DNA of 64,000 nt, taken from assembly GCF_000189635.1 (NCBI RefSeq), contig NW_002476422.1, forward strand, positions 310,001 to 374,000, given 5' to 3'. Made by a program: the position numbers and the translations under genes. Origin of the DNA: Tetrahymena thermophila SB210. Its lineage: Eukaryota > Ciliophora > Oligohymenophorea > Hymenostomatida > Tetrahymenidae. Below, piece by piece: positions 15,130 through 43,042 of this stretch; positions within the stretch are counted from its first letter, which is position 1, and the number at the start of each line of letters is the position of its first letter. Under the pieces are notes generated by a model. It was not told where the DNA came from. It saw only the letters and a list, made by a program, of their open reading frames with translations, and did no database searches.

Positions 15130-15846
15130 TCAGTAATAATATTTATCTTTCATGGAATCAAAAATGAATGTTTTGTTTTCTTTAGTTTGAATGTATTCCT
15201 TGATTTGAGGAATATTCTCAATTCTTTTCAGGTACTCAGTAAAAATTTAGATTTTAGGATAAAATAATTAGAAATTTCTTAAAACTTCGTAAAAGTAAAG
15301 ATCTACGTATGTAAGATTACCTAATAGATATTCTTGATTTCCAAGTTATTTCTTAATTTTCTATTATTATGATAAAATTTAAAATAATTTTTCTATGATT
15401 GAATAAAAACAAAAATAAAAATTTTTTACTTCAAACGTAATATTAAATTGTTCATTGAAAATCTTTTCTTTCTCTTCTTTGAATGAGGGGATTCTCGCTT
15501 AAGCTTCAAGTTTATCTAATAATTCCTTTAAAATCTCCTAAAGTTGTAGATAAGTAATTTCATTCTAATTATAAGAACCATCAACATTCTATCCAATAAG
15601 ATCAAATCTCTTGAACTTCTTAATAATATAGATAGGAATAACTTTAGATTCTGTCACAACTACATCTCCATCTATAACATAGGGTAAATTAGGGAAGTTT
15701 GTATTGAGATTTTTCTTATCTGTACCAAACCACTCCTCTCCATTCTCATGATAAAGTTTATCCTAATATTCCACTTACAAATATTCAAGCAGCAAGCGGA
15801 TAGATTATCCGTAACCTCTTAAGTTCCAATATCCAAGTATTATCAT
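15130..15846 (-). CDS. Mu-type glutathione S-transferase, copy 1
   Basis: The protein has 215 residues in two exons (minus strand: 15846-15430 and 15360-15130), with a 69-nt phase-0 intron (GTAAAA...ATAATAG). The N-terminus reads MIILGYWNLRGYGQSIRLLL, the start pattern of mu-class enzymes, with the catalytic tyrosine at residue 6. NLPYVIDGD supplies the cis-proline of the thioredoxin fold, and the ES in VVTESKVIPIY binds the glutathione gamma-glutamyl group. The C-terminal half is the all-helical domain, with LLGNLTYVDLYFYEVL at the usual place. Length matches the family (about 218). The enzyme conjugates glutathione to electrophiles in the cytosol. It lies downstream of TEX264-like copy 1 on the same strand, 1.7 kb away. 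Intron position and exon lengths (417 + 231 nt) are identical in all three GSTs of the window. Confidence 0.95.
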
Positions 15847-17561
15847 TTAGTTTTTTATTACTATTATAAATGTTTTTTTAAATTATTCTTTTTAAATTAT
15901 TAAACTTTTCCCTTAATTTAAAGACAAATTTCAGAAAACTATCTGTTAAAATATATCAGAAGAATTAATTTAATACAAAATATAATAAGAATTCCTTCAG
16001 ATTTATTTCTGATAAATTATTAAAAATAAAAGTTTTGATTTGAAATCCTGTATTTTTTATGATAAAATACTAATATCAGTTATTTCTTAGAAAAAGAAAA
16101 GAACAATATAATATTTTTAAGTAAAATAATATTTAAAGCACAATTCAAAAATTTATTCTTTTTTTTAAAATTATATTTTAAGATTTTATGATTAAATATT
16201 TTTTTTAAACAACTTTAAGAAAATCAAACTTAAATTATTTTTGAAATTAATTTAGCTTCTAAATTAATAAATGTTCTTTGTTTTATTTTATTGAATTTTA
16301 TTCAAAAAGCTAATTTCTATAATCTTTCTTAGAACAATTCTTACATCAAATAATAAATTTTAGAAATTGTCATCGAATAAATATCTATTTACAGTTTTAA
16401 ATTAGTGGTAAATTATTAATTTTAAGTTGGTTTTCATAGTAATTCTTACTTACTTACAAATTCTGAGAATTACATTCTTCTCCTTTAATTTTAGATATAG
16501 TCACTAATTTTTGATTGTTTAATTTAAAAAAATTTACCATAATTCCTCGATCGATTTGCATTCAATATTAAATACTGTAGTGAGCAAGTAAATAATTTCA
16601 ATAAAAATGTTTATTTCTAGTGCATATATAATTGGTAAAATTTATTAGAAGAAATACATTATTTATTTATGAATATGTATTTAATTTTAACTTTAGTTTT
16701 ATAAAAATTAAGATTTACTTTTTGTTAAAAAAATAGAATATAATCATTTATACTATGCGTTTAATAAAGAATATTAAAACCTAAATAAAAATAATTAGAT
16801 TTTGGAATACAAAAACAATAATTTAATCTCTAAATATTATATTTAAATACTGAATGTGTACTTGATAATAGTTAAAAAAACAGGCAATTTAAAGTTATTT
16901 ATAAAGATAATAAATTGATTTTTCATTTATTTTAGTTAAACTCTATTAAATTTATTTTAATTTCCTAGTAAATGTTGAAAAAGTAAATAAATAAATAAAT
17001 AAACTTAGTATAACCTCCCAGATTAGATAAATAAATACCTTATTAATTAAATATTTTCGCTTACATCTAAATTTCAATCAAATTAGTTTATTTTTAATAA
17101 TCAAACTTTTCATAATCTAAAGTTGAAGAAAATTCGAAGATAAAAAACAAATAAATAAATAGTGAATAAAAGAAAATAACTTAAAATGGGAGTAGGATTG
17201 ATGGATATTCAAATCTTGTAAATTTCAAATATTTTCTTGAATAATAAATAAAATTAATTGAAACTTTTCATAAAATACGTGATTAATCTTTAAATTTTTG
17301 AGTTTTTGAGTGATAAATTAATTTTTATGTGAAAGCAAATATCATAAATAATGAAGATTAAATAAAAAAATTTAGGTAGAAATAAAATGGCTAAAAATAA
17401 GTAAAAATTTAATAAAATGTCTTCAAATAATTTAAAATAGTTAAAAGTAAGCAAAAATATTTTTGAAATTTAAAAGGTTTTAATGGTACATGATAATATT
17501 AAGTTTAATTAATATTGATGCTATCAAGCAAGAACAAACATTTTAATAAAATTTTATAGAA
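15847..17561. other. Intergenic region between GST 1 and TEX264-like 1
   Basis: 1.7 kb of AT-rich DNA, longer than the equivalent gap in the other two modules (about 1.0-1.2 kb). No gene, tRNA or recognisable repeat was found. Promoter elements of the minus-strand GST must lie at its left end but cannot be picked out by eye. Confidence 0.5.
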
Positions 17562-18161
17562 TCAAAATAAGAAGTAACTCTCAGAATTTTCTCCTAATGG
17601 GATATCAAAATTAATTTTCTTGCTTTATTCCTAAAATAAATATGTCTCAACCAAGCAAAACGATGATAAATTTTTCTCCAAAGCATATCCAGTGATTTTA
17701 GGATATATTTTTTCTTTTACTATTTTAAATGAGAATGAAGATTTGTAGGAGAAACTAGTGGAGTAGCTTTGTACTTCAGGAAGCTAAACAAATTTATAGT
17801 TTGGGTTATTATCTAAAAAAATCTTTATCTTATCTTTTTCTCTATTTCCTACTGAAAATCCAAGAGCAACTCGAGCTTGATTTGGATCATCAAGTAGTTT
17901 AGGGTTATCATAGTAAATACCAATAAACTGTACATTAGTAAAATATTTATGGGCATCTTTCTCAAGCTTCATCCATTCAGTACCTATTGTTTGATAACTG
18001 CCAATTCTATTGAAGTAGATGAAATCACATGGACCATACTTCTATTCTTTAATATCGACATTAGAAAAAGCTCCATGATACCAATAGAATCCAGATATTA
18101 ACCCAGCAATTCCTGCACCTATTGCGCAAGCTAATTTAAGTTTATTATTCAAAATATTCAT
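17562..18161 (-). CDS. TEX264/GyrI-like membrane-anchored protein, copy 1
   Basis: The single exon encodes 199 residues, with ATG at 18161 and TGA at 17562-17564. A hydrophobic helix at residues 8-27 (LKLACAIGAGIAGLISGFYW) is followed by a globular domain. Key strings are KYGPCDFIYFNRIGSYQTIG and VQFIGIYYDNPKLLDDPNQA, followed by RVALGFSVG. The order Y-x-GPY/C, G-x-Y, then IYYDNP and a short R-x-A-x-G stretch matches the GyrI-like domain of TEX264, which in animals sits on the ER behind one N-terminal helix and acts as an ER-phagy receptor. This protein lacks the long disordered cytosolic tail with the ATG8-binding motif and ends with SYFLF, so receptor function is not implied. An endomembrane protein with a GyrI fold is the supported call; the ligand is unknown. 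Confidence 0.8.
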
Positions 18162-19562
18162 TTAGTAGTTATTTTCTATAATCTTTAATTCTTCTCTTTT
18201 AATATTAGCAAGTTTATTAATAATTTATTATCAGATTATTGAAAATTATTTATGACTTTTAAAGATAAAAAAGATAAAATAGAGTCCCAATCTAATTTGA
18301 AAAACAAATTCAGAAGAATTTTATAATACTTTGTATCTTAGCTGATAAATTCTAAGTTACACGAAATTGATCAATATTTAGCAATTAAAATAGTAAAAAA
18401 AGGTATTCATAAAAATTTTACTAATATACAAAAATCACCGCCATAAATTACAAAATTTAAAAAACAAAAATAGAAATTAATTTTGGTTTTAAATATAATT
18501 TATACATTTAAATAATATTTTGTGGTAGTTATTAAAAAAAGTTAGTATTTAAAATACTCTTCTTCAATCAATAAATAACTTGATACGATTCTCAGTATAA
18601 AAATTGCATAAAATAATAAAAATTATTAAATGATTTGAATTTTCCAAATCATATTTGCTTAGCTGAAATAGCAAAACAATTAATTGATTTTTGAATAATT
18701 ATTTTCTAAATAATTTATTTAAAATACAAAATTTACAAACAAATTATAAAAAAAATTAGTTTCGAAACTTAATTTGTGAATGTAATTGTTATTAAAAATT
18801 GTGATTATTGAATATTAATTAATTAAAACAGATTTTTTAAATATTAAAACAAGTAAATAACAAACACCAACTAATAAATCCTATTAATTAATGCTTTCAT
18901 GCTTTCTATTATAAAATAAATTTATCATCATCACTCTTAAATAATAAATTTATTTAGAAAAATACTAACAATTAACATTATTAACAACAAAAAGTCAAAT
19001 TACTTAAACTAAAAAAGGGCACTTTATTGAAATCGTTTTTTATATATTGATAAATAAACTTTTATTTAATTAATAGCATTTTTTCAATTATTAATAGAGC
19101 ATATTTATAATTACTCTTTCTCAAAATATTAAAATATTTTATTGAGTTTTATTTTAGAAGATTTTTAGAATAATATTTTTGTATTTTGCCTGAATATCTT
19201 AATTAATGAATCCTTAAAATGTTATTTAGTTAGAATAAATAAATTAATTTCATTTATAATTGTTATAAATTTAACATCAAACATTATATTATTATGAATA
19301 TTCATTAAATAAAAGTAAATCATTCAGTTTTATAATCTTCTAAGATTCTTTATTAAATATAGAGACACTTAAAAAATAAATTTATGAAATTATTGGTAAC
19401 AAAAACTTATCTCAAAATTTATTATTTCATGAAATAATCCATTTATTTTTTAATCTTTGAGAATTTTATTTTAAATTTTGATTTTATTCAATTTTAATAT
19501 TATAAAATACTACCAATATAAATAAATAAATATTATGAATTTATTGCAGGTTTTAGTCTTAT
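18162..19562. other. Intergenic region between modules
   Basis: 1.4 kb of AT-rich spacer between the start of TEX264-like copy 1 and the stop of GST copy 2. No gene or structured repeat was seen. Confidence 0.5.
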
Positions 19563-20267
19563 TCAATAATAAAAATAGCTTTTCATTCTATCAAGAATAA
19601 AGATTTTGTTTTCTTTTGTTTCAAGATAGTTTTTTATTTGAGGAATATTTTCTATTCTATCAATATAGTCGGTAAAGATTGAAAGTTTTGGATAAAAGAA
19701 TTAGAAAAATTTCAAAACTTCATAAAAATAGAAATCTATAAATGAAAGATTTCCAAGCAGGTATTTGTTCTCTCCAAGTTGTTTCTTTATTTTCTATGTT
19801 TATAATAATAATTAAATATTTAGTAAATTAAAAAAATTGTATTCAAATACCTCAAAAGTAATGTTGAATTTTTCATTGAAAATTTAATCTTTTTCTTCTT
19901 TGAAAGATGGTACTTTTGCTGAATTCAATAACGAATCTCTGAGTTCTTTCAAAATTTCTAAGATTTAAAGGAATGTAATTTCATTCAAATTAAAAGACCC
20001 ATCAGGATTTTAGCCAATAAGCTCATAATTTTTGAATTTCTTGGCCAAGTAAATAGGAATAACTTTTGATTCTGTTACAACAATATCTCCATCAATTATA
20101 TAAGGTAAGTTAGGGAAATTAGTTTTAAGTTATTATTTATCAACATTTAACCATTCTTCTCCATCTTAGTTATAAAGTTTTTCCTTATAATCTACTTACA
20201 AATATTCTAGAAGGAGACGAATAGGTTAAGCGTAGCCTCTTAGATTCCAGTAACCAAGGATTATCAT
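19563..20267 (-). CDS. Mu-type glutathione S-transferase, copy 2
   Basis: 215 residues are encoded in exons 20267-19851 and 19793-19563, separated by a 57-nt phase-0 intron (GTATTT...ACATAG). Exon lengths of 417 and 231 nt are identical to copies 1 and 3. The catalytic Tyr6 lies in LGYWNLRGYAQPIRLLLEY, with NLPYIIDGD and TESKVIPIYLAKKF for glutathione binding, and LLGNLSFIDFYFYEVL in the helical domain. It is closer to copy 3 than to copy 1: it shares YAQPIRLL and TDYIDRIENIPQIKNYLETK with copy 3. It lies 1.2 kb downstream of TEX264-like copy 2 on the same strand. Confidence 0.95.
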
Positions 20268-20559
20268 GCTATTTAAATTATTTTGATTGTTTTTTATTAA
20301 TATTTATTATATATTTTAATAAATAATTATTATTCATTTTTAAAGCGAATAACAGAAATATAGAAGAATGATTTCTGATAAATTAAAATATCTATTCGAG
20401 AGAATAAATAATTATTTTGTATTTTCCTCTAAATTATCAAAAAATTGCGCTTAATTTTTATTTATTCAAAATCTTAAGCTTAATATTTCTTAGAAAAAAA
20501 AAGAAGATTACAAAAGTAGTTTCTAGAAAATTTAAATAAAATAAAAAAGATATTTTAAT

Positions 20560-21444: not shown

Positions 21445-22044
21445 TCAAAATAATAAGTAGCTTTATGAATTATTTCCAATGGGGATATCAAAATTTATTT
21501 TTTTATTTTAAACCTAAAATAAGTAAGACTCTATTAAACAATATGATTTAAGTTTTTTCTCAAATACAAAGTCTCTTACTTTGGGATATATTTTATCTTT
21601 TACTATTTTAAATGAAAAATAAGATTTGAAGGGGAAGCTCGTAGAATGACTTTGCACTTCAGGAAGCTCAGTAAATTTGTAATTTGGGTGACTATCTAAG
21701 AAAGCCTTAATCTTATCCTTTTCACAGTTTCCAACAGCAAAACCAAGAGCTGCTCTTGCTTGATTTGGATCTTTTAGCTGTTCAGGGTTATCGTAGTATA
21801 TGCCAATAAAATGTACAGTGCTAAACTATTTTTGAACTTCATTACTCATCTTTGACCATTCACTACCTAAAGTTTAATAGCTTCCTACTCTCTTATAGTA
21901 GACGAAATCATAAGGACCATACTTTGAATCTCTAAACTCTATATCAGAAAAAGCACCATGATACCAATAGATACCAGATACTATACCAGTGATCCCAGCT
22001 CCTATAGCGCAAGCCAATTTAAAGTTATTCTTCAAGATATTCAT
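21445..22044 (-). CDS. TEX264/GyrI-like membrane-anchored protein, copy 2
   Basis: The single exon encodes 199 residues, the same length as copies 1 and 3, with ATG at 22044 and TGA at 21445-21447. The N-terminal helix LKLACAIGA-type segment (here FKLACAIGAGITGIVSGIYW) is followed by SKYGPYDFVYYKRVGSYQTL and HFIGIYYDNPEQL, then ARAALGFAVG. The GPY and YYDNP motifs of the TEX264 GyrI-like domain are present. It ends QSYLLF. It is the upstream member of the second TEX264-like/GST module and is divergent from LRR gene 2, with a 1.5-kb region between them that must hold both promoters. Confidence 0.8.
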
Positions 22045-23577
22045 TTAATATTAATATAATTGATTGGTTTTTAATTTGTCTTGATTTTGTTTTTTTGTTT
22101 GTTTGTGTTTGTTTCTTACTTATTTAATATAATTTGAATTACAGATTATTTTGAGATTTTTAAATGAAAGAATCATAGTCAAGTCTAATTTAAGAGATAA
22201 ATCAATTAACAAAAAATTTGTAATATTTTATGTCTTGGCTGATAAAATCTGACCTATATAAGGTGAATGGATATTCACTAACACACAAAAAAAAAATATA
22301 TATGTGCTGAATTATATTTATTTTTCTAAGGTCAACTTAGTTTAAAAAAGATAAAACTTTGCTTGAATTATTTATTTCATTATTTTAAAAATAATTTTAT
22401 AATTTAAGATAAATATTTTTTATAGTAGAAAAACAAACAAATTCAAGCAAGCTTAAATATTTTAAATAATACTGAATTATAGAATAAATAAATTAATGCA
22501 ATTTTTGTAATATTTTCAATCATCTCTAATTAAATCTGATGATAATTAAAAATAGAATCAGTCTTTACAAAGACATAAATGTTTTTATCTATTTGATGTA
22601 TTCAAATTTTAATCGAATGAAAAATAAAATGTAAATTTTACCTACCAAAAAATAATTTTCTTTAATAAAAAAGTATCTGCAGCTTTGGTGTATATTAGGC
22701 TAATCTGGAGTAATTAAATAATATCTAGCATAAAAATTTAACATTAAATTGATAGAAGAATTTGAATACTAACTAATATAGAATACATATTATGATATAA
22801 ATTATTTGTCTGTAAATTTGCCAATGATTAACAAACAAGACTGCTATCTATCTAATTAATAGATTAAATTTTAAGGAAGTCTTAATTAAACACATCAGAA
22901 ATAATAAAAATAAATATAATAAGGATAAAAATAAAATATTTATATATGCACTAACACTAATTTTATAAATTTAAGAGCAAATGCTTCATTGATATCTACT
23001 CTATCATAAATTGACATGTTAAAAGCAATGTTTTAAATAGAAATATTAAGATTTAATAATGAATTTTATACTAATATTATTTTTTGTGATATCTCTAAAT
23101 TATTATATTTTGTTTGTTGCTTTTGACTTAATTAATTTATGAAAAAACATATAATTAATTAATTAATTAAATTTCCATAAACTGACTGCTATTAAATATT
23201 TTTGAAGAAAAATAAATGATAAGATACAAAAATTATTTTTAGAATAAAGAAGAAGTAAATATTTATTTTTTTATTAATATTGTTTAAATTCATTTTATTA
23301 AAAAACAATTTTTTTAACTCTTCATTTTAATCGCATTAGGCTCTCGATCTTGATCATAAGAAGTATATTTAATTATTAATATTAATTGTTTTTTACATTT
23401 CAAGTTATTTACAAAATGATTTTTCAATTAGAATTTCTCATCTATATATATATTCTCATTTATTTATTTATTTATTCTCAATTTTTATTTTAATTATTTA
23501 TTATTAATTTTTTTATATTTGATATTTATTCATCATTTTATTTATTTTTTCTTCACTATTAAAAAATACAATTCTAG
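22045..23577. other. Divergent 5' region of TEX264-like 2 and LRR gene 2
   Basis: No gene is firmly supported. A possible first exon of LRR gene 2 starts at an ATG near 23217 (MIRYKNYFQNKEE, then GTAAAT), and a degenerate LRR-like stretch (HQALDLD) sits near 23333-23350. Both are unproven. The rest is AT-rich. Confidence 0.35.
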
Positions 23578-26500
23578 AGATAATCATGTAAAAGACATAT
23601 ATTCTACTTTAGAAAAATGTGCTAATTGCTCAATTTTGAAACTTGATCTTGAGTAATAAAAACCATTTATTTGTTTTAGATTGTGATATTTTTGAATATA
23701 AAAATGAATTTAAAACAATATTTATTAGCTTTTTATTTCATTTATTTTTCTTTTTTTTATTCTCATTGTATTTTTTTTTTCTTTCTTATACTATTTAACT
23801 GATTTTTCATTTTCAACATTTACTTTTATTATTAATTAATTAATTTTCTTATCACTTCATATTTTTTCTCCATTTTTTCATTCTAAACTATATTTTATTC
23901 ATTAATATTTAAAAAGGGGTAGTGTAATTGATGCAATTAGTACATCGTACTTAGGTTCTTCTTTAGGAAAATGCACTAATCTATCAAATTTGATGCTTAA
24001 TCTTAAGTAAAAATAGTTTATTTGTTTTGGATAATGATATTTTTTGAAAAAAAAATGAATTTAGAACAATATAATTAAAACTTTTAATTTATTTATTAGT
24101 TTTTTATTTGATTTATCTTTGATTATTTTATTTTGATTGTGTTTTTTTTTCTTCATCCTTACCTTGGTAATTTAAGTTATTTTTTTTATTTTCAACTTTT
24201 ATTTTTTTATTAATTAAGTAATTTATTTCTTATTATTTCATACTTTTTCTTCATTTTTTTCCTTTAACTAACTAATTAATTAACTCTAAATTTTTTCTTT
24301 GATATTTAAAAAGCTTCGGTTGTATTGGTGATTAAGGTGTATAAGACTTAGGTTCTGGTTTAAGAAAGTGTGCTAATCTCTCAAATTTGGCACTTTGTCT
24401 TCAGTAAAAACAGTTTATTTATTTTGGATTGTGATATTTTTTAAAATAAAAATTAATTTAAAACATTATAACGAACTTTCTTAATATATTTATTAGCCTT
24501 TTATTTGATTTATTTTTTTTCTTTTTTTGATTGTTAATTTAAATAAGTTTTTCATTTTCAACTTATGGCTATTAATTTCTTATTATATAATTAACTAATT
24601 AACAATATATTTTTCTTCTATTTTTAAAAAGAAACAATTAAATCTCTGGTGTAGGTGCATCAGGCTTAGGTTCTGATTTAGGATAGTGCACTAATCTCTC
24701 AAATATGGAACTTTGTCTTTCGTAAAAATAGTTTATTTGTTTTGGATTGTTAATATATAAAGAATTTAAAACGATATAACTCGTTTAATTTATTTATAAG
24801 CTTATTTTTTTATTTGTTTTTGTTTTTTTTATTATATTTATTTTTTTTCTCATTTTCTTACATTTTTAGATTTTTTACTTTTACTATTTATTAATTAATT
24901 TCTTATTACTTCTTATTTTTTCTTTCTAACTAATTAACTATATATTTGTTCTTCAATATTTAAAAAGAGAAAATTAAATTGGTGATAAAGGTGCATCAGG
25001 CATAGGCTTTTGTTTAAGAAAATGCACTAATCTCTAAAATTTAACACTTGATCTTGTGTAAAAGCAGTTTTTTGTTTTCGATTGCTTATCTTTTTAATAA
25101 AAAATGAATTTAAAACAAACAATATAATTAGGATTAAATGCATTTTAAATTTTGGATAGGGTATACTAATTAATGTTTAATTAAAAAAGGTAGAGAAATG
25201 TTTATAACAAAACATTAGTTTATATTTATTTTAACGAAATAGTAATTAGCATAACCTATCCAAAATTAAAAAGGTATATTACTCAAATTAGAGAAATATA
25301 TTTTCTTCAATATTTAAAAAGTAATAATAATATTCGTGCAAATGGTGCATCAGGTTTAGGCTCTGGCTTAGGAAAGTGCACTAACCTCTCAAATTTAAAA
25401 CTTCAAATTCAGTAAAAATTGTTTATTTATTTTGGATTGTGATATTATTTAATTTAAAAATTAATTTAAAAAAAACTAATTATTTTAATTTTTTATTAGT
25501 TTTTTATTTGATTTATTTTTCTTTTTTTTTATATTCTGCTTGTGTTTTGTTTCCTTGTTTACTAATTTAACTCATCTTTTTTTTAATATTTGCTTTTATT
25601 ATTAATTAATCCATTCATTTCTTATTATTTCTTCATTTTTTTCTTCTAATTAACTAATTAATTAACTATATATTTTTCTTCTATATTTAAAAAGTGAAAA
25701 TCAAATCGGTGAAGAAGGTGCATCAGGCTTAGGTTTTGGTTTAGGATAGTGCACTAGTCTCTAAAATTTGAAAATTCGTCTTGAGTAAAAACAGTTTATT
25801 TATTATGGATTGTGATATTTTTTAATACTCTTTTAATTTATTTATTAGCTTTTTATTTATTTTATTCTGGTTATACTTTTTTATTATTTTCTGTTTATTT
25901 TCTTTGTTAATTTAAATCATTTTTTCATTTTTAACTTTTGCTTTTATTGTTAATTAATTTCTTACTATTTCATAATTATTTCATTAATATTTAAAAAGGG
26001 TTAATGAAATTGGTAAAGGTGCATCAGGCTTAGGTTCTGGTTTAGGATAATCCACTAATCTCTCAAGTTTGACACTTCATCTTTGGTAAAAATAGTTTAT
26101 TTGTTTTTGGTTGTGTTATTTTATAATATTAAAATATAATAAAACAACAACTATTTTAATTTATTTATTAGCTTTTTATTTGATTAATTTTACTCTTTTT
26201 TTATTCAGGTAATATTTCTTTTTCTTTCTTGCTTACCTTCTTAGTTAATTTAACTCATTATTTAATTTTTAAATTTTGTTTTTATTAATAATTCATATTT
26301 CTTATTATTTCTTATTTTTTATTCGCTTTTTCTTTCAATAATCTAATTAAATATATATTTAATATTTAAAAAGGGGAAATAAAATTGGTGATCAAGGTTC
26401 ATCAGGCTTTGGTTTTGGTTTAGGATAAAGCACTAATATATCAAGTTTGATTCTTGATCTTATGTAAAAACAGTTTATTGTTTTGGATTGTTATATTTTT

Positions 26501-29500
26501 TAATAAAAAAATGTATTTAAAAAAATATAACTTACTCTTTAAATGTTTTTATTTATTAGATTTTTATTTGATTTAATTTTTATTTATTATGCTTGTTTTA
26601 TTCATATTTCTTTGTTTGTTAATTTAACTTATTTATCTTTCTCAGCTTTTGCTTTTAATAATTAACTAATTTCTTATTATTTCATATTTTTATTTTCAAT
26701 ATTTAATAAGGAAAAACTAAATTGGTGTAATTGGTGCGTAAGGCTTAGGCTCTGGTTTAGGAAAGTGCACTAATCTCTCAAATTTAACACTTAACCTTAA
26801 GTAAAAACTGTTTATATGTTTTGGATTGAGATTGTTTTTAATTTATTTATTTATTTTTTATTTTATATTTTTTTATAATGCTTGTGTTTTTTTTTATTTC
26901 TTTTTTTTTAATTTAAATTATTTATCACTCTCAACTTTTAATTTTCTTATTTCTTAATATCATATTTTTTCTTCATTTTTTTCTTCTAACTAACTAATTA
27001 AAAAATATTTTCACTTCAATATTTAAAAAGTTTTAATTAAATTGGCGCTATTGGGGCATCAGGCTTAGGTTCTGATTTAGGAAAATGCACTAACCTCTCA
27101 AATTTAACACTTAATCTTAAGTAAAATTATTTATTAATTTATTTTTGATTGTGATATTTTATAATATAAAAATTAATTTAAAACATAATAAAAAAATTAC
27201 CTATTTTAATTTATTTATTTGATTTACTTTTCATTTTTTTAATTATGCTTGTATTTTCTTTCTTTCTTTCTTTCTTTCTTTTTTAATTTAAATTTTTTTT
27301 ATTTCTTCTAACGACCCAATTAACTCTTCATTTTTTCTTCAATAATTAAAAAGTTAGAATGAAATAGGTGATGCAGGTGCATCAGGCTTAGGTTCTGGTT
27401 TAGGAAAGTTCACTAATCTCTCAAATTTGACACTTAATCTTTGGTAAAAAGAGTTTATTTATTTTGGATTGTGATACTTTTGAATATAATTTAAAGCAAA
27501 ATAACTAACTCTTTTAATTTATTTATTAACTTTTTATTGATTTATTTTTCTTTTGCTTAACCTTCTTGTGATTTTTTTTCTTTCTTTGTTTAACAAACTC
27601 TTTTTTCATTTTCAACTTTTGCTTTTATATGACTAATTAATTCATATATTTCTTATTATTTCATATTTTTTATTCATTTTCTTTTTTCAAACTAACTAAA
27701 AACCTATTTATTTTTTCTTCAATATTTAAAAAGTTATAATGAAATTGGTGCAACTGGAGCATCAAGCTTAGGTTCTAATTTAGGAAAATGCACTAAAATC
27801 TCAAATTTGATGCTTAATCTTGAGTAAAAATAATATAATTAACTCATATAATTTATATATTAGCTTTTTATTGATTTTTTTTCTTCTATTTTATTCAGCT
27901 TGTGTTTTTTAATTTTTTTCATTTTCAGCTTTTTTTTTATTAAAGAATTAATTTTATCATATTTTCTTCGTTTTTTTCCTTCTAAAAAACTAATTAACTA
28001 TTTTTTTTTACAATATTTAAAAAGAGGTAATCAAATTGGTGATGTAGGTGCATTAGGCTTAGTTTCTGGTTTAAGAGAGTGCACTAATCTATCAAATTTG
28101 GCACTTCGTCTTAAGTAAAAACAGTTTATTTGATTTGGATTATCAAATTTTTGAATATAAAAATCAATTTAAAAAAATATAACTATTTTATTAATTTATT
28201 TATTAGCTTTATATTTGATTTATTTTTCTTATTCTTATTGTGGTTGTGTTTTTTTTCTTTGTTAATTTAAATAATTTTTTCATTTTTAGCATTTTCTTTT
28301 TTTATTTATTAATTAATTTCTAATTATTTCATATTTTTTATTCATTTTTTTTTTTCAAACAAACTAATCAACTATATATTTTTTTCTTCAACATTTAAAT
28401 AGTTAGAACGAAATTGGTGATGCTGGTGCATTAGGCTTAGTTTCTAGCCTAAGAGAGTGCACTTATATATCAAATTTGATGCTTCATCTTGAGTAAAAAT
28501 AGTTTATTTATTTTGGATTGTGATGTTTTTGGATATAAAAATGAATTTAAAACAATATAACTATCATTTTTAATATATTTATTAGTTTTTTATTTGATTA
28601 ATTTTTTTTTAATTTTCAACTTTTACTATTTTATTAATTATACCTTGTTTTAAGTTGATTTGTTCCCCTTATAAAAATTGAAACTAAAGTGGCTAATTAA
28701 ATTTTTTAACTGTGAAAAAGTATTTTAAAGATTTTAAAAGCTTTAATTTTTCAATATTATTTTTATACAGTAAATGATTATTATTTTACTCATTCCAGTC
28801 AAAAAAATAATGATTCAAAAATAAATTTAAAGGTATGTTTATACAATTAGAACTAATCAAATCAACAGACTAAAATTAATTTCTTATTATTTCATTTTTT
28901 TTTCATCGTTTTTACTTTCTAACTTACTAATTAACAATATATTTATATTTTCTTCAATATTTAAACAGTAAAAATAATATTCATCAAATTGGTGCATCAA
29001 GCTTAGGCTCTTGTTTAGGAGAGTTCACTAATCTATCAAATTTAGCACTTTATCTTAGGTAAAAAAAGTTTGTTTATTTTGGATTTTGATATTTTTTAAT
29101 AAATTATCTAACTAATTCTTTTAACTTATTTCATTTGATTTATTTTTCTTTTTTTTATTACATTTGTGTTTTTTTGATTCCTTTTTTCCTTGTTAATTTA
29201 ACTCATTTTCATTTTCAATATTTGGTTTTATTATTAAATAATTTATTTCTAATTATATATTTTTTATTCATTTTTTCTTTCAAACTAACTAATTAACTAA
29301 ATATTTTTTTCTATAATATTTAAAAAGGACTAATGAAATTGATGCAACTGGTGCATCAGACTTGGGTTCTGGTTTAGGGAAATGCACTAATCTCTCAAAT
29401 TTAACACTTCATCTTTCGTATAAGCAGTTTATTTATTTTAGATAGTGATATTTTTGAATATAAAAATTAATTTAAAGGAATATAACTTACACTTTTAACT

Positions 29501-30075
29501 TATTTATTAGTTTTTTATTTGATATATTTTTCTTTTTCATGAGTTTTTTATTTCTTTCCTTGTTAATTTAACTCATTTTTTCATTTTAAACTTTATTTTT
29601 ACATTAATTAATTTATAAATTTCATATTTCTTCTTCAAATTTTCTTTCGAAATAACTAATTAACTTTATATTTTTCATCAATGTTTAAAAAGTTATGACG
29701 AAATTGGTGATGTAGGTGCACTAGGCTTAGTTTCTGGTTTAAGAGAGTGTACTAATCTATTAAATTTGATCCTTCTTCTTGAGTAAAGCAGTTTATTGTT
29801 TTAGATTGTGATATTTTTTAATATAAAAATAAATTTAAAACAAAATATATAACTATTTCTGAAAATTTATTTATTGGCTTTTTATTTGATTTATTTTTCT
29901 TTTATTTTTATTGTGATAATATTTTTTTTATTATATGATTTAAAAAATTTATTCTATATACACATTAATTATAATTAAAAGGATCTAAAAATATGATAAA
30001 CCATAATTATTGAAAGTAAGAAGCAAATCACTCAAATCAAAAAGATTAGTTATCTTAAAGATAGAGCATTGGTGA
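23578..30075 (+). CDS. LRR gene 2: array of 18 one-repeat exons plus terminal exon
   Basis: Exons start at 23578 (75 nt), 23917, 24314, 24632, 24968, 25322, 25695, 25999 (87 nt), 26374, 26711, 27031, 27354, 27734, 28025, 28403, 28969, 29328 and 29693, and a last exon runs 29982-30075 with TGA. Unless noted, each repeat exon is 90 nt. All junctions are phase 2 (...L-x-L-xx^GTAAAA / AAAAAG^x-xx-N). Each exon encodes one LRR, typically NEIGDAGASGLGSGLGKFTN then LSNLTLNL. Intron sequences are themselves repeated, so exon plus intron (about 330 bp) was the amplified unit. Introns are 199-307 nt, except one of 476 nt that holds a duplication boundary. The terminal exon is basic (SLKSKRLVILKIEHW). 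The product is a ribonuclease-inhibitor-like solenoid of at least 570 residues; ligand and role are unknown. The 5' end is not resolved. Confidence 0.85.
25148..25267. mobile_element. MITE-like palindromic insertion in an LRR gene 2 intron
   Basis: A 120-bp segment has 25-bp terminal inverted repeats. The left end reads AATTTTGGATAGGGTATACT then AATTA, and the right end, inverted, matches it with two mismatches. The internal part carries a second small inverted pair (AATGTTT/AAACATT). No sibling intron of the array has it, so it is an insertion after amplification of that unit. It has no coding capacity. Whether it is a non-autonomous transposon or only a palindrome is not settled by sequence alone. 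Confidence 0.5.
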
Positions 30076-32571
30076 TAAAAAAGTGGTAAAAATTTAACAA
30101 ATAAATATAAAAGCATTTGTTTAATATAATTAATATGTTATATTTAATTATTTAATCTAAAATATACTGTATTTCCTTAATTTTAATAGACTTGGTTTTC
30201 ATCGGTGCATTAGATGAAATCCAAGGTTAACTAAATTTTTTATAGCCTAATCATTAATAAGATATTTAAATAGAGAACAGAAAATCCATATATAAGTATA
30301 TAAATGTAAACATATAAAATTTATATTCAATTTAATTTTTGAGAAATGTCAGAACTAAATTACAAAAAATTAATCTTTTCTTTTTTATTAAAATTTATTT
30401 ATTATTTTTACATAATTTTAAATGATAAAAGTTTAATAGAATAAATTGTAAATTTTTGTTTTTTACTTGACCAATCAAAATTATAATTTTATTTTTAAAA
30501 AATTATTATTTATTAATTATCTTGGTTCTTAAAGATAACAATAACACTATTCAATTACTTACATTTCAAATGAATCACTTTTAAATAATTTTATACATTG
30601 TTTTAAGCAAGAAATTTATCTTTTCTATTCTAAAAAGGTATTAGATTGGAAAAATTTGTTTATTAATAAATATCTATCTATCTAATTAATTAAATTATTT
30701 GTGCTATTACTGTTAATAAACACAGGATTTAAATTAATAAAAAAATATTTATATAAATTTTATTTTTAGCCTTTTTACAATATTTTATATTTTAAGACAA
30801 AAATTTTAGACAATTTTTCTGCAATTTAACAATCTTCTCTATATAAAGTATTATATAAAAATACATCAAAATTAAATTTATTTTATCTTATAATAATTTA
30901 ACTTAGTTTTCTAATACTATTAAATCACATAAATTCATAGATACTCAACAAATTTTATGTTGTAATTCAAAAGATAAAATAATTTCCTAATTAAATTAAG
31001 ATTCAAAATATGTATTATTAACTTACATACTATATTTTTATTGATTACTATTAATTATATTTAAACTTTCTTTTAAATTGATTTTGCAGGATAAATATAA
31101 ATTTAATATTCTGATAAGTAAAGGAAGTGCTTAAAAATTAGAATTTAAATGTATATCATTCAATTCAATTTAATTTATACTATTTTAATATTGTAAATAT
31201 CAGAAATGAATTTTAAAATATTAAAAAAATATTTTATTTAACATTTTTTGAATAAAATAAGATTTTTAAAATAATTTGACTAAAAGGGAATTTTTGTTTA
31301 CATATTTTTCATTTTATAAACAACTTTATGAATATTGAAATAAAAGACTAATTAAGAATGTAAATTAATATTGTTATCACATTTTATTTTAAATAAGAAG
31401 CTTTAATAATGAGGATATCATTTTAATCAGAATATGAGGTAGAGTATAAATTAAAAATAACTTTTATTTTTATACTTTTACAACTAGATTAATTTTTTTT
31501 GCTTTGTATGGCTTACTAATCCATATAAAAATAATGCTTATAGCAAAAAGCTAAATTAAGCATTTAAATTTTTTATAAAGAAGATTTTTGCATATAAATT
31601 AATGCACTTTGTATATTTTTATAAAATAAATATGAGAATGTTGTTTAATTAGGAGTTTAAATTTACCTTACTTATATAATATCAGAATGAAAAATATAAG
31701 TTAATTGAGTTAAATAACATTATCTTTTTTATGATAATCTTATAATTGAGAATGAGAAATTACTCATATTAAAGTTTTAAAACACAATAAATGAATTTAT
31801 TTTTTGAAGTTCTGTAAAAATCATACTATGAATATATTGAAAAAATGAGCTAAAAATAATAATTAATTTTATTTTTCTTTTATAAACTAAATTAAGCAAA
31901 ATTTTATTTATTTACTCTTTTAAATAACACAATTTAACCAAACGACTTTAATATATTTGCATATCTAATTCAAAAAATAAAAAATTGATAGTTATTGCAG
32001 TCAGTTAATTTGTTTGAAAATGATATAACTTTTTGAAAGATAAATTGGTAATTAAAACTAAAATGAATTAATATTTAAGTTTTAATAAAGTAAGACTCTC
32101 TCTTTTTTGAAAAAAATAATTAATTTTCCATTTCAAATATTAAATTTAAATTTATAATTGAATGCATTAATCTTTTGACTTTTTAAAATATGTAAGTTTA
32201 TTTATTTTAGTTAATATGAGGTATTAAATAGATTTAAAAATATATTTCTTTTCTAAACAAGATGTAAAATGTAGAATTTTAAATCTCTAAAATATTTTAA
32301 AGAATTTCAATTTTTTATATTTATTACATATTTTTCTCTATAAAAATCATAGAATTTAAAAGCAGATACTTTTTTTTTAAATTGTTAAATACCTATTTAA
32401 ATAAATTTTGAAAACAAATTTATTTGTAAACCAAAAGATTTATTTTCATTCTTTAATTATTTTTTTTAAAAAGAGGTTATATATTGATCAAATATAATTA
32501 ATTAATTTCTTATAAAACTAAAAATATTATTTTGATAATTGGAGAAATCTGTGTCTTTAAATATTGTAGAT
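30076..32571. other. Spacer between LRR gene 2 and membrane protein gene A
   Basis: 2.5 kb of AT-rich DNA without a gene, matched along its length by 36610-39887 in copy B. It contains the hairpin at 30191-30225 (listed separately). Conservation here is by recent descent and does not itself indicate function. Confidence 0.5.
30191..30225. other. Conserved stem-loop (copy A)
   Basis: CTTGGTTTTCATC (30191-30203) pairs with GATGAAATCCAAG (30213-30225) with one mismatch, over a 9-base loop GGTGCATTA. The equivalent in copy B at 36743-36777 keeps both arms intact and differs only in the loop. It lies about 120 bases beyond the LRR gene 2 stop, so it could mark the 3' end of the transcript or an independent small RNA. 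Purpose is unknown. Confidence 0.4.
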
Positions 32572-34873
32572 ATGAGTTAAATTGAAACAAATTCTTGGTA
32601 ATCTTAAGCTAATAATATGATGCTTGGAAGCTAATCAAAATAACAACTTTAGGGATTGAAGCTAATTTTTAAGATAAGTATCTTATCTCTTGTTATCTTT
32701 GGCACTATATTAGCTGTTAATCTAAGACTTACAAGAGATCAGTCTGTATTTTCTCATGAAAAAAACTTAACTGGAAATGCTAATGGTCGTTTCTTAAATT
32801 CATTAGAAAGTAATTAATTAAATAAATTTATATCATTAAATCGCATTTAAAAATTATAGGGAAGGAATTAAGAAAAGAAACTCTCAAAGAAGCCTAAAAT
32901 AATTAAGTTGATGTCGCCTATCAAAGTAAATATTAAATTTATTAAATTGATTTATTTTAATTTCTTTTTAGACCAAAATAATTGATAAAATTTTTCAGAA
33001 TAATGGAAAATTTATCAATCAATTAATAAAATTTGACTTTTCTTAAAAATGAATTAAAAAAAAATATCATTTTTTTAAAAAGCTTTCTACGAACTCATAA
33101 ATGGGTTAAACTAATAAATACTTGATTATCTTAATATATCTTATATTACCGAATATAGTATTAACAAACTCTAAGATTGGACAAATATATTCTACAGAAT
33201 TTATTAAGATTTTCCTATTTCAGCTATAGAGTGGATGTATGAAGATCAAAATTATGGCTTCAAATATAATCCTTAAATTTGGATGGATGGCTATTTAGAA
33301 CAACAAAATAACTAAATAAATGAAAAATCAATAAGTATTTTCCTTATTAACTACTTTAAGCTTGATTATTATAAAATGGACAAATTCTGGAGCTATATGT
33401 ATAATGATTTCTATGGTAGTATTTTAATCAGCGAAGAATATTTAATTAGAGGAACTTTTAATTGTACCTAATCTAATGAATAGGAGTATGTCAAGTCTTG
33501 TCTATTAGTAATTCTTGCTAAAAAATTACAAACAATTGTATTATATTTATTAAATTTAATTAAAAAACAGGCTTAATAATGGGTAGATTTGAACTTGGGT
33601 TATTCAATTGCTAATTTGAACAAAACTATGTTAATAGAACCAGAAATAGCTGCATTTTAAAAGGGCTATTTCAAATAGCATGTCAATTCTTCATCTTTAT
33701 ATTAAGATATTAAATTTGCTTAAGAATGGGGTATTTATTTATTTATTTTACAAAATGTTTACAAGAAATTATATAAAATAAATTTTATCTTAAAGCTGTT
33801 GAAGTTACAAAGATCAACTAGAACACAAGCCACAGCTTGGTTGATAAAGATAATTTATCATTTTTATTCTTAAATGGATAAAACTATGATGAAACTTAAA
33901 ATGAAATATATCTTGTAGAAATTTCTGAGCGCTTTTTGATTAACTAGTATTATTTTGGAGAAAAATACTTAGACGCTACTTACCTCTTCTGGTAATATGC
34001 TATTTATATGGTTGACATTTTTTCTGAGTTAAGGAATTATAAGGATGGTGGATTTGAAGTCTATAAAAAATCTTAATTTGACAGCTAAAAACTTTCTTCC
34101 TAATTTTAAGTAACAAGCGATAACTTAGCTGTAAATATCATCGAAGCTCTCATGCTAGAAAATTATAAATCAAAGAATATTACTGACTGTAAATCTTTTA
34201 CTTATTAACTTTAATAAGCTGAACACTTATGCAAAATTTAATCTTTTAATAATTTTGATTTACAAACTATGAGAACCATCTACGAATGTAAAATGTATAT
34301 GCTTTACTCTCCTTAGTGTGAATAATACAATTTCATTTATAACTTTGACGTTGTAAATTAAGTGATTAAAGAAGTTGATCTACAAATGTATAACTAGTAT
34401 CAATGTATATCTAAGATAGAGAAATGTTCATACTATGAAATAGCTGCTAAATAATGGTATAACTTAGAAGTTATTCGCAAGTTACCTGATGCTGCTGTTC
34501 CTTATTTACCAAAAGGAAGAGATTCAGTAGCTTAATGGATTCCTAATCTTTAGCCTTACGAGTGGGGATATTATGTTGAAAAGTATGGATAAACCTTCAG
34601 TTAACCTCCTGCTAATCTTACTTATAATTAGACTAGCTAACTTTTAGGCTACAACATCCTTTTTTCAAACAATAGATTAACCTAAATTTTTGTGATTGAC
34701 TCATCTTTCTCCTAAAATTACTTTTTCAAAGATCCAAGCTAACTTCGTTCCTACTTTAAGTAAATAACTCAAAATTTAATTAATTTTTCTTTTTATTAAT
34801 CGTTTCATTTAAAATTTAAAAAAGTTGGCTCCCTTCCGATAAAATACATGAAGTCATCTATTAGTAACAATGA
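32572..34873 (+). CDS. Membrane protein with single N-terminal helix, paralogue A (643 aa)
   Basis: Six exons were read: 32572-32809, 32860-32925, 33083-33537, 33571-33730, 33796-34759 and 34825-34873 (TGA 34871-34873). Residues 31-50 (FKISILSLVIFGTILAVNL) form one transmembrane helix after a Gln/Asn-rich N-terminus. The remaining 590 residues, rich in Tyr, Gln and Cys, would then be extracytosolic (type II topology). No family was recognised. The introns are proven by comparison with copy B. Intron 3 is 33 nt here and 32 nt in B, and intron 5 differs by 4 nt, yet all six exon lengths are identical (238, 66, 455, 160, 964, 49), so those segments cannot be coding. Recognisable segments include SAIEWMYEDQNYGFKYNPQ and AAVPYLPKGRDSVAQWIPNL. 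Confidence 0.85.
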
Positions 34874-35502
34874 ATTCGTTACTTTTTTAAGAAAAAATAA
34901 CTTTGATCTTTTTATAAAACTAAAAAAAAATTATTATTATTTTATTATATATTACATAAAAGTGAGTATTTTTATAATCTTATTTTTAAATAAATAAATA
35001 AATTAATGAAGATCTTTAATCTAATTATTTCAGTAAAGTTCATACAAATAGTTATTTTTTAATAATTTTGCTCCTGACTTGTTTGTTTTTATTAAAAAAC
35101 CTTTACAGCTTCTCAAATCCATTTATACTTCATTATTTTTTACCATGATAAAATATCAGTAATAAAATTTTTTATTAATTTTCAAATTATATATGTATGA
35201 TAGCTCTACCATATTTTAAAAAATTTATATAAAAAATGATGAAATAGAAGCCTAAAAAGTATTTTAAAGGTTTTAAAAGCTTTAAATTTTCAATTTTATT
35301 TTTATACAGTAAATGATTATTATTTTACTCATTCCTGTCAAAAAAATAATGATTCAAAAATAAATTTAAGGGTATGTTTATTTTACCAATCAACTCAATA
35401 AACTATAATTAATTTCTTATTATTTCATTTTTTTTTTCTTCATATTTACTTTCTAACTTACTAATTAACAATATAAATATCTATTCTTCCATATTTAAAC
35501 AT
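34874..35502. other. Junction of the two segmental duplication copies
   Basis: The 3' flank of membrane protein gene A runs to about 35250, where copy B of the duplication starts. No gene was seen. Confidence 0.5.
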
Positions 35503-36609
35503 TAAAAATAATATTCATCAAATTGGTGCATCAAGCTTAGGCTCTTGATTAGGAGAGTTCACTAATCTATCAATTTTAGAACTTTATCTTAGGTAAAAAA
35601 AGTTTATTTCTTTTGGATTCTAGTATTTTTTAATAAACTATCTAACTAATTCTTTTAACTTATTTATTAGCTTTTCATTTGATTTATTTTTCTTTTTTTT
35701 ATTACATTTGTGTTTTTTTTTATTTCTTTCTTTCCTTTTTAATTTAACTCATTTTCATTTTCAACATTTGGTTTTATTATTAGTTAATTTATTTCTAATT
35801 ATTCATGTTTTTTCTTTCAAACTAACTAATTAACTAAATATTTTTTTCTATAATATTTAAAAAGGACTAATGAAATTGATGCGACTGATGCATCAGACTT
35901 GGGTTCTGGTTTAGGAAAATGCACTAATCTCTCAAATTTAACACTTCATCTTTCGTATAAGCAGTTTATTCATTTTAGATAGTGATATTTTTGAATATAA
36001 AAATGAATTTAAAGGAATATAACTAACACTTTTAACTTATTTATTAGTTTTTTGTTTGATATATTTTTCTTTTTCATGAGTTTTTTATTTTTTTCCTTGT
36101 TAATTTAACTCATTTTTTCATTTTAAACTTTGTTTTTACATAAATTAATTTCTAAATTTCATTATTTTTCTTCAAATTTTCTTTCGAAATAACTAATTAA
36201 CTTTATATTTTTCCTCAATCTTTAATTGGTTATGACGAAATTAGTGATGTAGGTGCACTAGGCTTAGTTGCTGGTTAAAGAGAGTGTACTAATCTATCAT
36301 ATTTGACCCTTCTTCTTGTGTAAAGCAGTTTATTGTTTTGGATTGTGATATTTTTTAATATAAAAATAAATTTAAAACAAAATATATAACTATATCTTAT
36401 AATTTATTTATTGGCTTTTTATTTGATTTATTTTTCTTTTATTTTTATTGTGATAATATTTTTTTATTATATGATTTAAAAAATTTATTCTATACACATT
36501 GATTATAATTAAAAGGATATAAAAATATAATAAACCATAGTTATTGAAAGTAAAAAGCAAATCACTCAAATCAAAAAGATTAGTTATCTTAAAGATAGAG
36601 CATTGGTGA
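35503..36609 (+). pseudogene. Decayed 3' end of LRR gene 2 in copy B
   Basis: Counterparts of the last three LRR exons and terminal exon lie at 35503-35592, 35865-35954, 36230-36319 and 36516-36609. The first has lost its 3' splice site (AAACAG in copy A is AAACAT here) and carries an in-frame TGA at 35546-35548, where copy A has TGT. The third has also lost its acceptor (AAAAAG became AATTGG). The second and terminal exons remain intact. With no upstream exons or start, this is a non-functional fragment left by the tandem duplication. Confidence 0.85.
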
Positions 36610-39600
36610 TAAAAAAGTGGTGAAAATTGAACAAATAAATATAAAAGCATTTGAATAATAAAATTAACATATTATATTTTATTATATTTTGTAATTTAAT
36701 TATTTAATCTAAAATATACTGTATTTCCTTGACTTTCATCGACTTGGTTTTCATCGGTGTATTAGATGAAATCCAAGGATCAATTTTTTATAGCCTAAGC
36801 ATTAATAAAATATTTAAATAGAGCACAGAAAATCCATACATAAGTATATAAATGTAAACAAATAAAATTTATATTCAATTTAATTTTGGAGTAATTTAAG
36901 AACTAAATTACAAAAAATTAATCTTTCTTTTTTATTAAAATTTATTAATTACTTTTACATAATTTTAAATGATAAAAGTTTAATAGAATAAATTGTAAAT
37001 TTTTGTTTTTTACTTGATCAATTAAAATTATAATTTTATTTTTAAAAAATTATTATTTGTTAATTATCTTGGTTCTTAAAAATAACAATAAAACTATTCA
37101 ATTACTTACTTAAATTTCAAATGAATCACTTTTAAATAATTTTATACAATGTTTTAAGCAAGAAATTTAGAAATTTCTCATTTCTATTTTAAAAAAGTAT
37201 TATCTTGGAAACATTTGTTTATTAATTAATATCTATCTAATTAATTAAATTATTTGTGCTATTACTGTTAATAAACGCAGGACACAAATTTATAAAAGAA
37301 AAAAAAATATAAATATTATTTTTAGCCATTTTACAATATTTTATATTTTAAGACAAAAATTTTAGACAATTTTTCTGCAATTTAACAATCTTCTTAATAG
37401 AAAGTAATATTTAAATAAAAATACATCAAAATTAAATTCATTTTATCTTATAATAATTTAACTTAGTTTTCTAATATTATTAAATCATATAAATTCATAG
37501 AAAATCAACAAATTTTATGTTGTGACTTGTTTTGAAAGCAATTCAAAAGATAAAATAATTTCCTAATTAAATTAAGATTCAAAATATTTATTATTAACTT
37601 ACATACTATATTTTTATCGATTACTATTAATTATAGATAAACTTTCTTTTACATTGATTTTGCAGGATAAATATAAATTTAATATAGTAAAAGAAGCGTT
37701 TAAAAATTAGAATTTAAATGTACATCATTCAATTTAATTTATACTATTTTAAAATTGTAAATATCAGAAATTAATTTTAAAATATTTAAACAATCCTTTA
37801 TTTAACATTTTTTTTAGTAAAATAAGATTTTTAAAATAAAAATTTAAGATAGATAGATAAGAATAATTTGACTAAAAGGGAATTTTTTATTTACATGTTT
37901 TTCATTTTATAAACAATTTTATGAATATTGAAATAAAAGACTGATTAAGAATGTAAATTAATAAAAGAAAAAAATATATAAATTATATTTTTAGCCTTTT
38001 TTCAATATTTTATAAATTAAGATAAAAATTTTAGACAATTTTTCTGTGATTTAACAATCTTCTCTATATAAAGTAATATTTAAATAAAAATACATCAAAA
38101 ATTAAATTCATTTTATCTTATAATAATTTAACTTTGTTTTCTATAATTTTTAAATCATATAAATTCATAGAAATTCAAAAAATTTTATGTTGTGACTTGT
38201 TTTGTAATCAATTCAAAAGATAAAAATAATTTCCTAATTAAATTAAGATTCAAAATATTTATTATTATCTTGCATATGATATTTTTATTGGTTACTACTA
38301 ATTATAAATAAACTTTCTTTATATTGATTTCGCAGGATAAATATAAATTCAATATTCTGATAAGTAAAGGAAACGTTTAAAAATTAGAATTTAAATATAT
38401 ATCATTCAATTTAATTTATACTATTTTAATATCGTAAATATCAGAAATGAATTTTAAAATATTTAAACAATCCTTTATTCAACATTTTTTTAGTAAAATA
38501 AGATTTTTAAAATAATTTTTTAAGATAGATAAGAATAATTTGGCTAAAAGGGATTTTTTTATTTACATATTTTCCACTTTATAAACAATTTTATGAATAT
38601 TGAAATAAAAGACTGATTTAGAATGTAAATTAATATTGTTATCACATTTTATTTTAAATAGGAAGATTTAAAAATGAGGATATCATTCTAATCAGAATAT
38701 GAGGTAAAGTATAAATTAAAAATAACATTTATTTTTATACTTTTACAACTAGATTAATTTTTTTTGATTTGTATGCTAATCCATAAAAAATCATGCTTAT
38801 CGCAAAAAGCTAAATTAAACATTTAACTTTTTTGTAAAGAAGATTTTTGCATATAAATTAATGCACTTTGTATATTTTTTAAAATAAATATGAGAATGCT
38901 GTTTAATTAGGAATTTAAATTTACCTTACTTATATAATATCAGAATGAAAAATATAAGTTAATTGAGTTAAATAACTTTATTTTTTTTATGATAATCTTA
39001 TAATTGAGAATGAGAATTTACTCATATTAAAGTTTTAAAACACAATAAATGAATTCATTTTTTGAAGTTCTGTAAAAATAATACTATGAATTCTGTCTAA
39101 AAATCTAAAATACTGAAAAAAAGAGCTAAAAATCAAAGTTACTTTTATTTTTCTTTTATAAACTAAAATAAGCAAATTTTATTTATTTTCTCTTTGAAAT
39201 AACAGAATTTAACCAAATGACTTTAATATATTTGCATATCTAATTCAAAAAATAAAAAATTGATAGTTATTTCAGTCAGTTAATATGTTTGAAAATGATT
39301 TAACTTTTTGATAGATAAATTGGGATTTAAAACTAAAATGAATGAATATTTAAGTTCATTTAATAAAGTAAGACTCTCTTTTTTTTTGTAAAAAATAATT
39401 AATTTTCCATTTCAAAAATTAAATTTAAATTTACAATTGAATACATTAATCTTTTGACTTTTTAAAATATGTAAGTTTATTAATTTTAGTTAATATGAGG
39501 TATTAATTTTTAAATTTCTATTTGGATAATGAAAAATTAGATTTAAAAATATATTTCTTTTATAAACAAGATGTAAAATTTAGAATTTTAAATTTCTAAA

Positions 39601-39887
39601 ATATTTTAAAGAATTTCAATTTTTTATATTTATTACATATTATTCTCTATAAAAATCATAGAATTTCAAGGCAAATACTTTTTTTTAAATTGCTAAATAC
39701 CTATTTAAACAAATTTAGAAAACAAATTTATTTATAAACCAAAAGACTTATTTTCATTCTTTAATTGTTTTTATTTAAAAAGAGCTTCCATATTCATCAA
39801 ATAAAAAATATAATTAATTAATTTCTTATAAAACTAAAAATAATATCTTGATAATTGGAGAAATCTGGATCTTTAAATATTGTAGAT
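36610..39887. other. Spacer of copy B, with internal duplication
   Basis: This is non-coding DNA homologous to 30076-32571. A block at about 37290-37960 is repeated at about 37965-38640. Shared str ings include TTTTAGACAATTTTTCTG and ATTTAACAATCTTCT, and both end in the CTGATT-AGAATGTAAATTAAT segment. Copy A has this block once. The stem-loop of 30191-30225 is conserved at 36743-36777. No gene was found. Confidence 0.55.
37290..38640. repeat. Nested tandem duplication in copy B spacer (about 680 bp x2)
   Basis: Units at about 37290-37960 and 37965-38640 share most of their sequence, including GACAATTTTTCTG, TTTATGTTGTGACTTGTTTTG and GCAGGATAAATATAAATT. The single copy A counterpart spans about 30740-31370. 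The two units have since diverged by small indels. Confidence 0.7.
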
Positions 39888-41058: not shown

Positions 41059-41089
<31 letters not shown>

Positions 41090-42221: not shown

Positions 42222-43042
42222 ATTCGTTACTTTTTTAAGAAAAAATAACTTTGATCTCTTAATAAAACTAAAAAAAAATTATTATAATTTTATTATATAT
42301 TACATAAAAGTGAGTATTTTTTAAATCTTATTTTTAAATAAATAAATAAATTAATGAAGATCTTTAATCTAATTATTTCAGTAAAGTTCATACAAATAGT
42401 TATTTTTTAATAATTTCGCTCTTAACTTGTTTGTTTTTATTAAAAAACCTTTACAACTTCTCAAATCCATTTATACTTGATTATATTTTTACCATAATAA
42501 AACACCAGTAATAAAATTTTTTATTAAATTTTAAATTATATATGTATGATAGCTCTTCAATTTTTTAAAAAAATTATATAAAAAATGATTAAATAGCTAC
42601 TTTTTTGAGAAGTGATTTTATAAAATATAAAAAATTAATAGTATTAATCAAGTCTACAAAGTATATTAATTACAAATGTTAAATTATTTAATTTATTCAG
42701 TAAAATGTAAAAATAATATTTTAACAAGGAAAGAATTTAGTTATTCGGATTATAAGTAAGTAAGTACCTTACTAACTATGGAAAAGGTAAAGAGCTTATG
42801 ACTTAAAGAATAATTTGGTGATATTTAATGAGATATTACAGAATTAAATTTTTATCAAAAAATTAATTGCATTTTTGTAATTAAATTAGAACTCAAAATA
42901 AATAAAATATCTTAGATGTCTATTTATTTTTATCTTTAGATTTGAAAATATTATTTTAAAATCAAATTAAAATAGAATATAAAAAATAGAACAAGTAATA
43001 ATTAGAAATAAATCGATTTAAATAGTATAAATTTTATATTAT
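42222..43042. other. Gap between duplication end and GST 3
   Basis: Homology to copy A ends near 42595. The remaining 450 bases, up to the stop of GST copy 3, are AT-rich spacer with nothing recognised. Confidence 0.5.

Follow-up and report, generated by a model that had tools for sequence, protein, structure and literature searches.

Eighteen exons coding for leucine-rich repeats (LRRs) lie on the plus strand at positions 23578–29782 of the window, the 64,000-nucleotide stretch of DNA that was analysed, read in the ciliate code in which TAA and TAG specify glutamine. Sixteen of them are exactly 90 nt long (one base, 29 codons and two bases), one is 87 nt and one is 75 nt. Numbered within the whole gene, the array begins with exon 3 (23578–23652), a degenerate first LRR exon of 75 nt with the non-standard acceptor TTCTAG. 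It continues with exons 4–9 (23917–25784; six exons of 90 nt starting at 23917, 24314, 24632, 24968, 25322 and 25695, with homologous introns), exon 10 (25999–26085; 87 nt and thus a codon short, in phase 2) and exons 11–17 (26374–28492; seven exons of 90 nt starting at 26374, 26711, 27031, 27354, 27734, 28025 and 28403), and it ends with exons 18–20 (28969–29782; three exons of 90 nt starting at 28969, 29328 and 29693). Exon 2 and all 18 LRR exons are each followed by an intron in phase 2. The donor is GTAAAA in 15 of the 18 (GTAATA, GTATAA or GTAAAG in the rest) and the acceptor is AAAAAG in 14 of the 18 (TTCTAG, AATAAG, AAATAG or AAACAG in the rest). The first-pass annotation had described 18 successive exons with a single LRR each, 16 of exactly 90 nt and all with phase-2 borders, and we confirmed this at 23578–29782; the GTAAAA...AAAAAG borders that it gave fit the majority of exons just counted and not the remainder. 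The G+C content of the LRR exons was 34.1%, compared with 14.7% for the introns and 20.5% for the window.

A single LRR crosses the exon junction: the strand leucines end one exon, and the next asparagine and isoleucine start the following one. The residue at the junction, which takes two bases from one exon and one from the next, is the last of each repeat, and 11 different residues were found at the 18 splice junctions.

The 5′ head of the gene was found by aligning the window with 2.1-kb stretches upstream of eight paralogous arrays. Exon 1 (23216–23254, plus strand) has an ATG start, 13 codons (MIRYKNYFQNKEE) and the donor GTAAATATT, and both its ATG and its GT donor are common to the window and all eight paralogous loci. 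Exon 2 (23340–23362, plus strand) is given as still spliceable, from an in-frame fallback AG (CATTAG), and ends in phase 2. Its usual AG acceptor, about 30 nt upstream, is present in all eight paralogues and gone from the window, which has AAAAACAA there; its GT donor is present in the window and in seven of the eight paralogues, the exception being locus L046. The usual acceptor of exon 3 (23578) is also gone, and TTCTAG serves instead. At the other end, a terminal exon of 94 nt (29982–30075, plus strand) closes with ...SLKSKRLVILKIEHW and then TGA, a conserved family tail; KSKRLV occurs in the window and in four of five aligned paralogous tails (plus strand only), the fifth, from locus L026, reading KSNRLV. 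The interval first assigned to the gene, 23578–30075, thus had the correct right end, at the TGA of the terminal exon, and left out the two 5′ exons.

Across the whole gene the spliced frame runs for 585 codons and is free of internal stops in the ciliate code; splicing of the 21 exons would yield a protein of 585 residues. This spliced protein matched Pfam LRR_6 at 60.8 bits (curated cut-off 23.4). Only LRR families were matched by Pfam, which found no effector domain, and no signal peptide was apparent by eye at the protein start, so that the predicted product appears to be an LRR-only protein. Sixteen solved sequences matched the protein, including RanGAP and NLRX1 chains and 5irm, which we take to be a NOD2 structure. 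Ribonuclease-inhibitor-type LRRs have the spacing N-x-I-x3-G-x3-L-x3-L together with an LxxLxL strand. The repeats described here resemble those of RanGAP, NLR proteins and ribonuclease inhibitor in this spacing and strand pattern, in LRR_6 and in the PDB matches. They differ in having 30 residues rather than 28 or 29, the strand and the asparagine being two residues further apart than in that general pattern, and the protein differs from ribonuclease-inhibitor-type NLR and RanGAP proteins in that Pfam found no effector domain here. The predicted protein would adopt a ribonuclease-inhibitor-type solenoid fold, with ligand bound by the strand face.

The 17 introns between the LRR exons measure 201–476 nt (median 264). 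When the introns were compared in pairs, 108 of 136 pairs scored higher than any of 408 comparisons of dinucleotide-shuffled sequence, and the other 28 did not (mean aligned identity 0.81, versus 0.71 for shuffled sequence). The introns are therefore homologous beyond chance, which bears out the earlier claim of mutual homology. An exon-plus-intron unit, put at about 330 bp in the first-pass annotation, was likewise supported, with a size nearer 350 nt given the median intron, and the proposal that repeat units are frame-neutral is upheld by the phase-2 borders of all exons. Exon-per-repeat LRR genes exist in animals and plants, with symmetric exons of one repeat each; the present array differs from these in that homology extends to exons and introns alike and the exons are fixed at 90 nt. 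Between exons 7 and 8, the intron contains a palindromic terminal-inverted-repeat element (25138–25277; 49-nt arms, 82% complementary). The genome has 57 matches to this element, and a given place is often matched on both strands, a repeat pattern as expected of a MITE-like family.

The longest intron (28493–28968, plus strand; 476 nt), before exon 18, holds the left breakpoint (28715) of a segmental duplication, about 6.5 kb long and in tandem, which breaks within the LRR array. Here 28715–35247 gave rise to a copy at 35254–42596, in two pieces of 89.7% and 91.5% identity, with an extra internal tandem repeat of 30724–31370 in the copy; elsewhere in the genome, 28612–28885 of the intron occurs only within this tandem copy. 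The duplicate carries the 3′ end of the gene (35254–36609, plus strand), with LRR exons starting at 35503, 35865 and 36230 and a terminal exon at 36516–36609. Its first LRR exon has an in-frame TGA and the AG acceptors at 35503 and 36230 are gone, which marks the three-exon copy at 35503–36609 as a decayed fragment. Substitutions hit 17 of 364 exon bases and 64 of 1054 bases outside (Fisher p = 0.36), indicating no significant constraint on this partial duplicate. The duplication is thus a direct case of a segmental duplication cutting an LRR array in an intron and leaving a fragment behind.

We then searched the genome (101 Mb, 445 contigs) using the window's own exons as queries for LRR units. 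DNA matches to the exon-intron unit numbered at least 191, with some overlap among them (30 of 976 candidates scored), and among the matches listed 25 contigs were represented. A whole-genome search with Pfam LRR_1 (PF00560) gave zero matches, and its controls were equally silent, making that search uninformative. CCCCAA repeats cap both ends of one contig (C4; 465,941 bases), OSCP was identical to PDB chain 6yny_G1 at 171 of 171 residues, and eS1 was identical to PDB chain 4bts_A4 at all 143 aligned residues; 6yny and 4bts are presumably T. thermophila entries. Together, the telomeric repeats and these identities point to Tetrahymena, very probably T. thermophila. RVT_1 had a single match in the genome, in line with a macronuclear origin, since transposons are eliminated from that nucleus, and by this measure the assembly looks macronuclear.

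Xiong et al. (PLoS Biol 2019; PMC6564038) described Tetrahymena LRR genes built of 90-bp exons, a single gene having from 1 to 51 of them in T. thermophila. These authors gave unequal crossing-over as a main mechanism by which units spread, with the REP retrotransposon as a possible helper, put forward recognition of bacteria as a possible role, and were aware of no such LRR arrays in any other organism; their group III is the young, long-intron class (PMC6564038). Our full-text searches for such LRR genes gave PMC6564038 alone or together with one review, and the other papers listed look unrelated by title. The locus matches this class, and the gene type is therefore already known, the array being a member of the class in PMC6564038. 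With high confidence we place the locus in the 90-bp-exon, phase-2-intron Tetrahymena LRR family, group III, the genome being macronuclear and, very probably, that of T. thermophila. Group III is defined in print by masking with published consensus repeats (CRS); here the group was assigned from architecture and repetition within the genome. As in group III, there are arrays of exactly 90-bp exons (here in consecutive runs of 6 and 10, the class criterion being at least three), phase-2 introns, an exon-intron unit of about 350 bp, and long homologous introns (median 264 bp here; a peak near 257 bp for T. thermophila in PMC6564038). Repeat number is variable in group III (PMC6564038). Further criteria for the group are an exon G+C exceeding that of other genes and an association with the REP retrotransposon in the germline nucleus. 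Nothing in the array differs in kind from group III, its extras being the 87-nt and 75-nt exons, the intronic terminal-inverted-repeat element and the two lost 5′ acceptors.

Several further features were observed in the window. Pfam found matches in four of ten long window frames and none in six. One gene for a glutathione S-transferase and one for a GyrI-like small-molecule-binding protein form a pair that is present in three copies, all on the minus strand (15130–15930 and 17562–18230; 19563–20333 and 21445–22515; 43192–44094 and 44771–45595), with the GyrI match above the Pfam cut-off in one of the three, and the LRR array sits between the second and third pair. On the plus strand at 12234–14214 lies another LRR gene, which has diverged further; several of its exons are 90 nt long and of phase-2 type, and it perhaps belongs to the older group II of PMC6564038. 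Related LRR exons occur on the minus strand (47162–47248 and 49903–50168) in or near a duplicated segment of 84% identity (46505–48058 and 49418–50929). Finally, a 324-bp unit in three tandem copies, 97% alike, lies at 48444–49406 inside a minus-strand open frame of 476 codons.

Next, we compared exon and intron divergence in 104 distinct 90-nt units with flanking intron, taken from the window and fetched loci (106 minus two read in the wrong register); 17 came from the window, namely the array's 16 and the duplicate exon at 35865. Exon identity and intron identity were correlated (Mantel r = 0.32 and 0.36, values that none of 2000 permutations reached), a first run on 106 units having given r = 0.17 (p = 0.022) and r = 0.27 (p = 0.0005). 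Intron identity was about 0.80 at exon identities of 0.75–0.80, 0.89–0.90 at 0.90–0.95, and 0.95 at 0.95 and above. In 12 of the 15 exon pairs that were at least 95% identical, both members lay in the same fetched locus, one of these being the window pair that stems from the segmental duplication. Exon and intron thus duplicate jointly and mostly locally. The exon-plus-intron amplification first proposed for this locus is thus visible across the 104 units and leaves no such signal inside the array, where exon and intron distances were uncorrelated among the 17 units built on its 16 exons of 90 nt and its 87-nt exon (r = −0.03 and −0.08). Pairwise identity among the array's 90-nt exons was 63–84%, and the best exon pair was 92% identical when the 87-nt exon was included in a gapped alignment. 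Because the distances are uncorrelated within it and its closest pair reaches 92%, we ruled out recent local amplification of the array, which by these distances is old and star-like. Dating the unit duplications by exon and intron identity, a check suggested in the first-pass annotation, was run and did not resolve their order within the array. Symmetric phase-2 exons set in homologous introns would allow recombination between introns to gain or lose whole 30-residue repeats with the frame intact.

Divergence among the array's own exons was 0.28, 0.25 and 0.27 at codon positions 1, 2 and 3; as these are about equal, constraint is not visible from the array alone. A tree of 112 exons (114 minus two in the wrong register) was analysed under two substitution spectra. 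Nine framework sites (seven leucine/isoleucine sites, G8 and C19) had an omega of 0.26 (p = 3e-14). The predicted strand-face sites 1, 3, 26 and 28 had an omega of 1.31–1.37, which is not significant (p = 0.11–0.17) and comes from sites picked after their variation was seen; the strand was assigned from the general ribonuclease-inhibitor pattern, Pfam LRR_6 and the PDB relatives. Position 28 alone had an omega of 0.71–0.79, the other 16 sites 0.81–0.91, and the off-face positions 11 and 14 exceeded 1.5 under both spectra, position 17 under one. These values come from parsimony, which undercounts at such divergence, and from exons that also recombine; the tree covers exon sites, with the junction residue outside it. 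A first run on 114 exons had given a face omega of 1.38 (p = 0.063) and a framework omega of 0.35. The first spectrum was derived from 31500–35247, which has a 509-codon open frame inside it and may not be neutral, and the second, from the non-exon bases of 28715–33400, gave a face omega of 1.36 (p = 0.10). By this test the framework is constrained across the family and the strand face is not; positive selection is not claimed.

Whether the gene works can be read in more than one way. It is a real possibility, though not the probable reading, that the array is a group III LRR gene in decay, mis-spliced at its 5′ end and no longer yielding the full protein: exons 2 and 3 lack their usual acceptors, exon 3 has become shorter and has diverged, and the adjoining duplicate fragment has plainly decayed. 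However, both fallback acceptors preserve the frame, the other 17 LRR exons retain their AG and GT borders, the terminal exon retains its AG, and the 585 codons are free of TGA. In particular, the 16 exons of 90 nt have no in-frame TGA (the other two frames contain 23 and 7), while simulated neutral drift from the family consensus gave a mean of 4.2–4.3 (500 simulations, two substitution spectra) and none at all in 1.6–1.8% of simulations (P = 0.016–0.018). With its two 5′ acceptors lost, this copy of the array may be decaying. Diversification of the protein inside a single cell line, whether through skipped exons or through somatic recombination in the macronucleus, is in our view very improbable. 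Skipping of symmetric phase-2 exons would be frame-neutral, and one junction residue per repeat is made from two exons (11 residues at 18 junctions), but the 63–84% identity of the 90-nt exons should limit recombination between them, and the term 'alternative splicing' is absent from the main text of PMC6564038. A satellite reading, in which the array consists of non-coding tandem units of about 350 bp with a chance open frame, is scarcely credible and was rejected: intron-intron similarity about equals exon-exon similarity, yet 16 of 18 exons have the exact 90-nt length with splice borders, TGA is confined to the other two frames, the framework omega is 0.26, and the start and stop exons are common to paralogues.

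For the array as a member of the group III family, a modular recognition role, as already proposed in the Discussion of PMC6564038, is plausible. The further idea that the family gives a single-celled organism a combinatorial repertoire for recognition, in which the leucine framework is fixed, exposed strand residues are free or selected, and exon shuffling creates new binding surfaces, strikes us as quite unlikely, its support having been reduced by the weaker result for face positions in the cleaned 112-exon test. The junction residue, on the same face, would be set by which two exons adjoin, because its codon is split across the splice junction.

Together, our results confirm a published unusual architecture from raw sequence and dissect one locus fully, with its head, its tail, a duplication breakpoint inside the array and a decayed offshoot. 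They add to PMC6564038 the co-divergence of exon and intron across 104 units and the constrained framework set against an unconstrained strand face. A constrained framework, an unconstrained face and a face residue encoded by a split codon would make the published recognition idea testable on thousands of sequenced exons.
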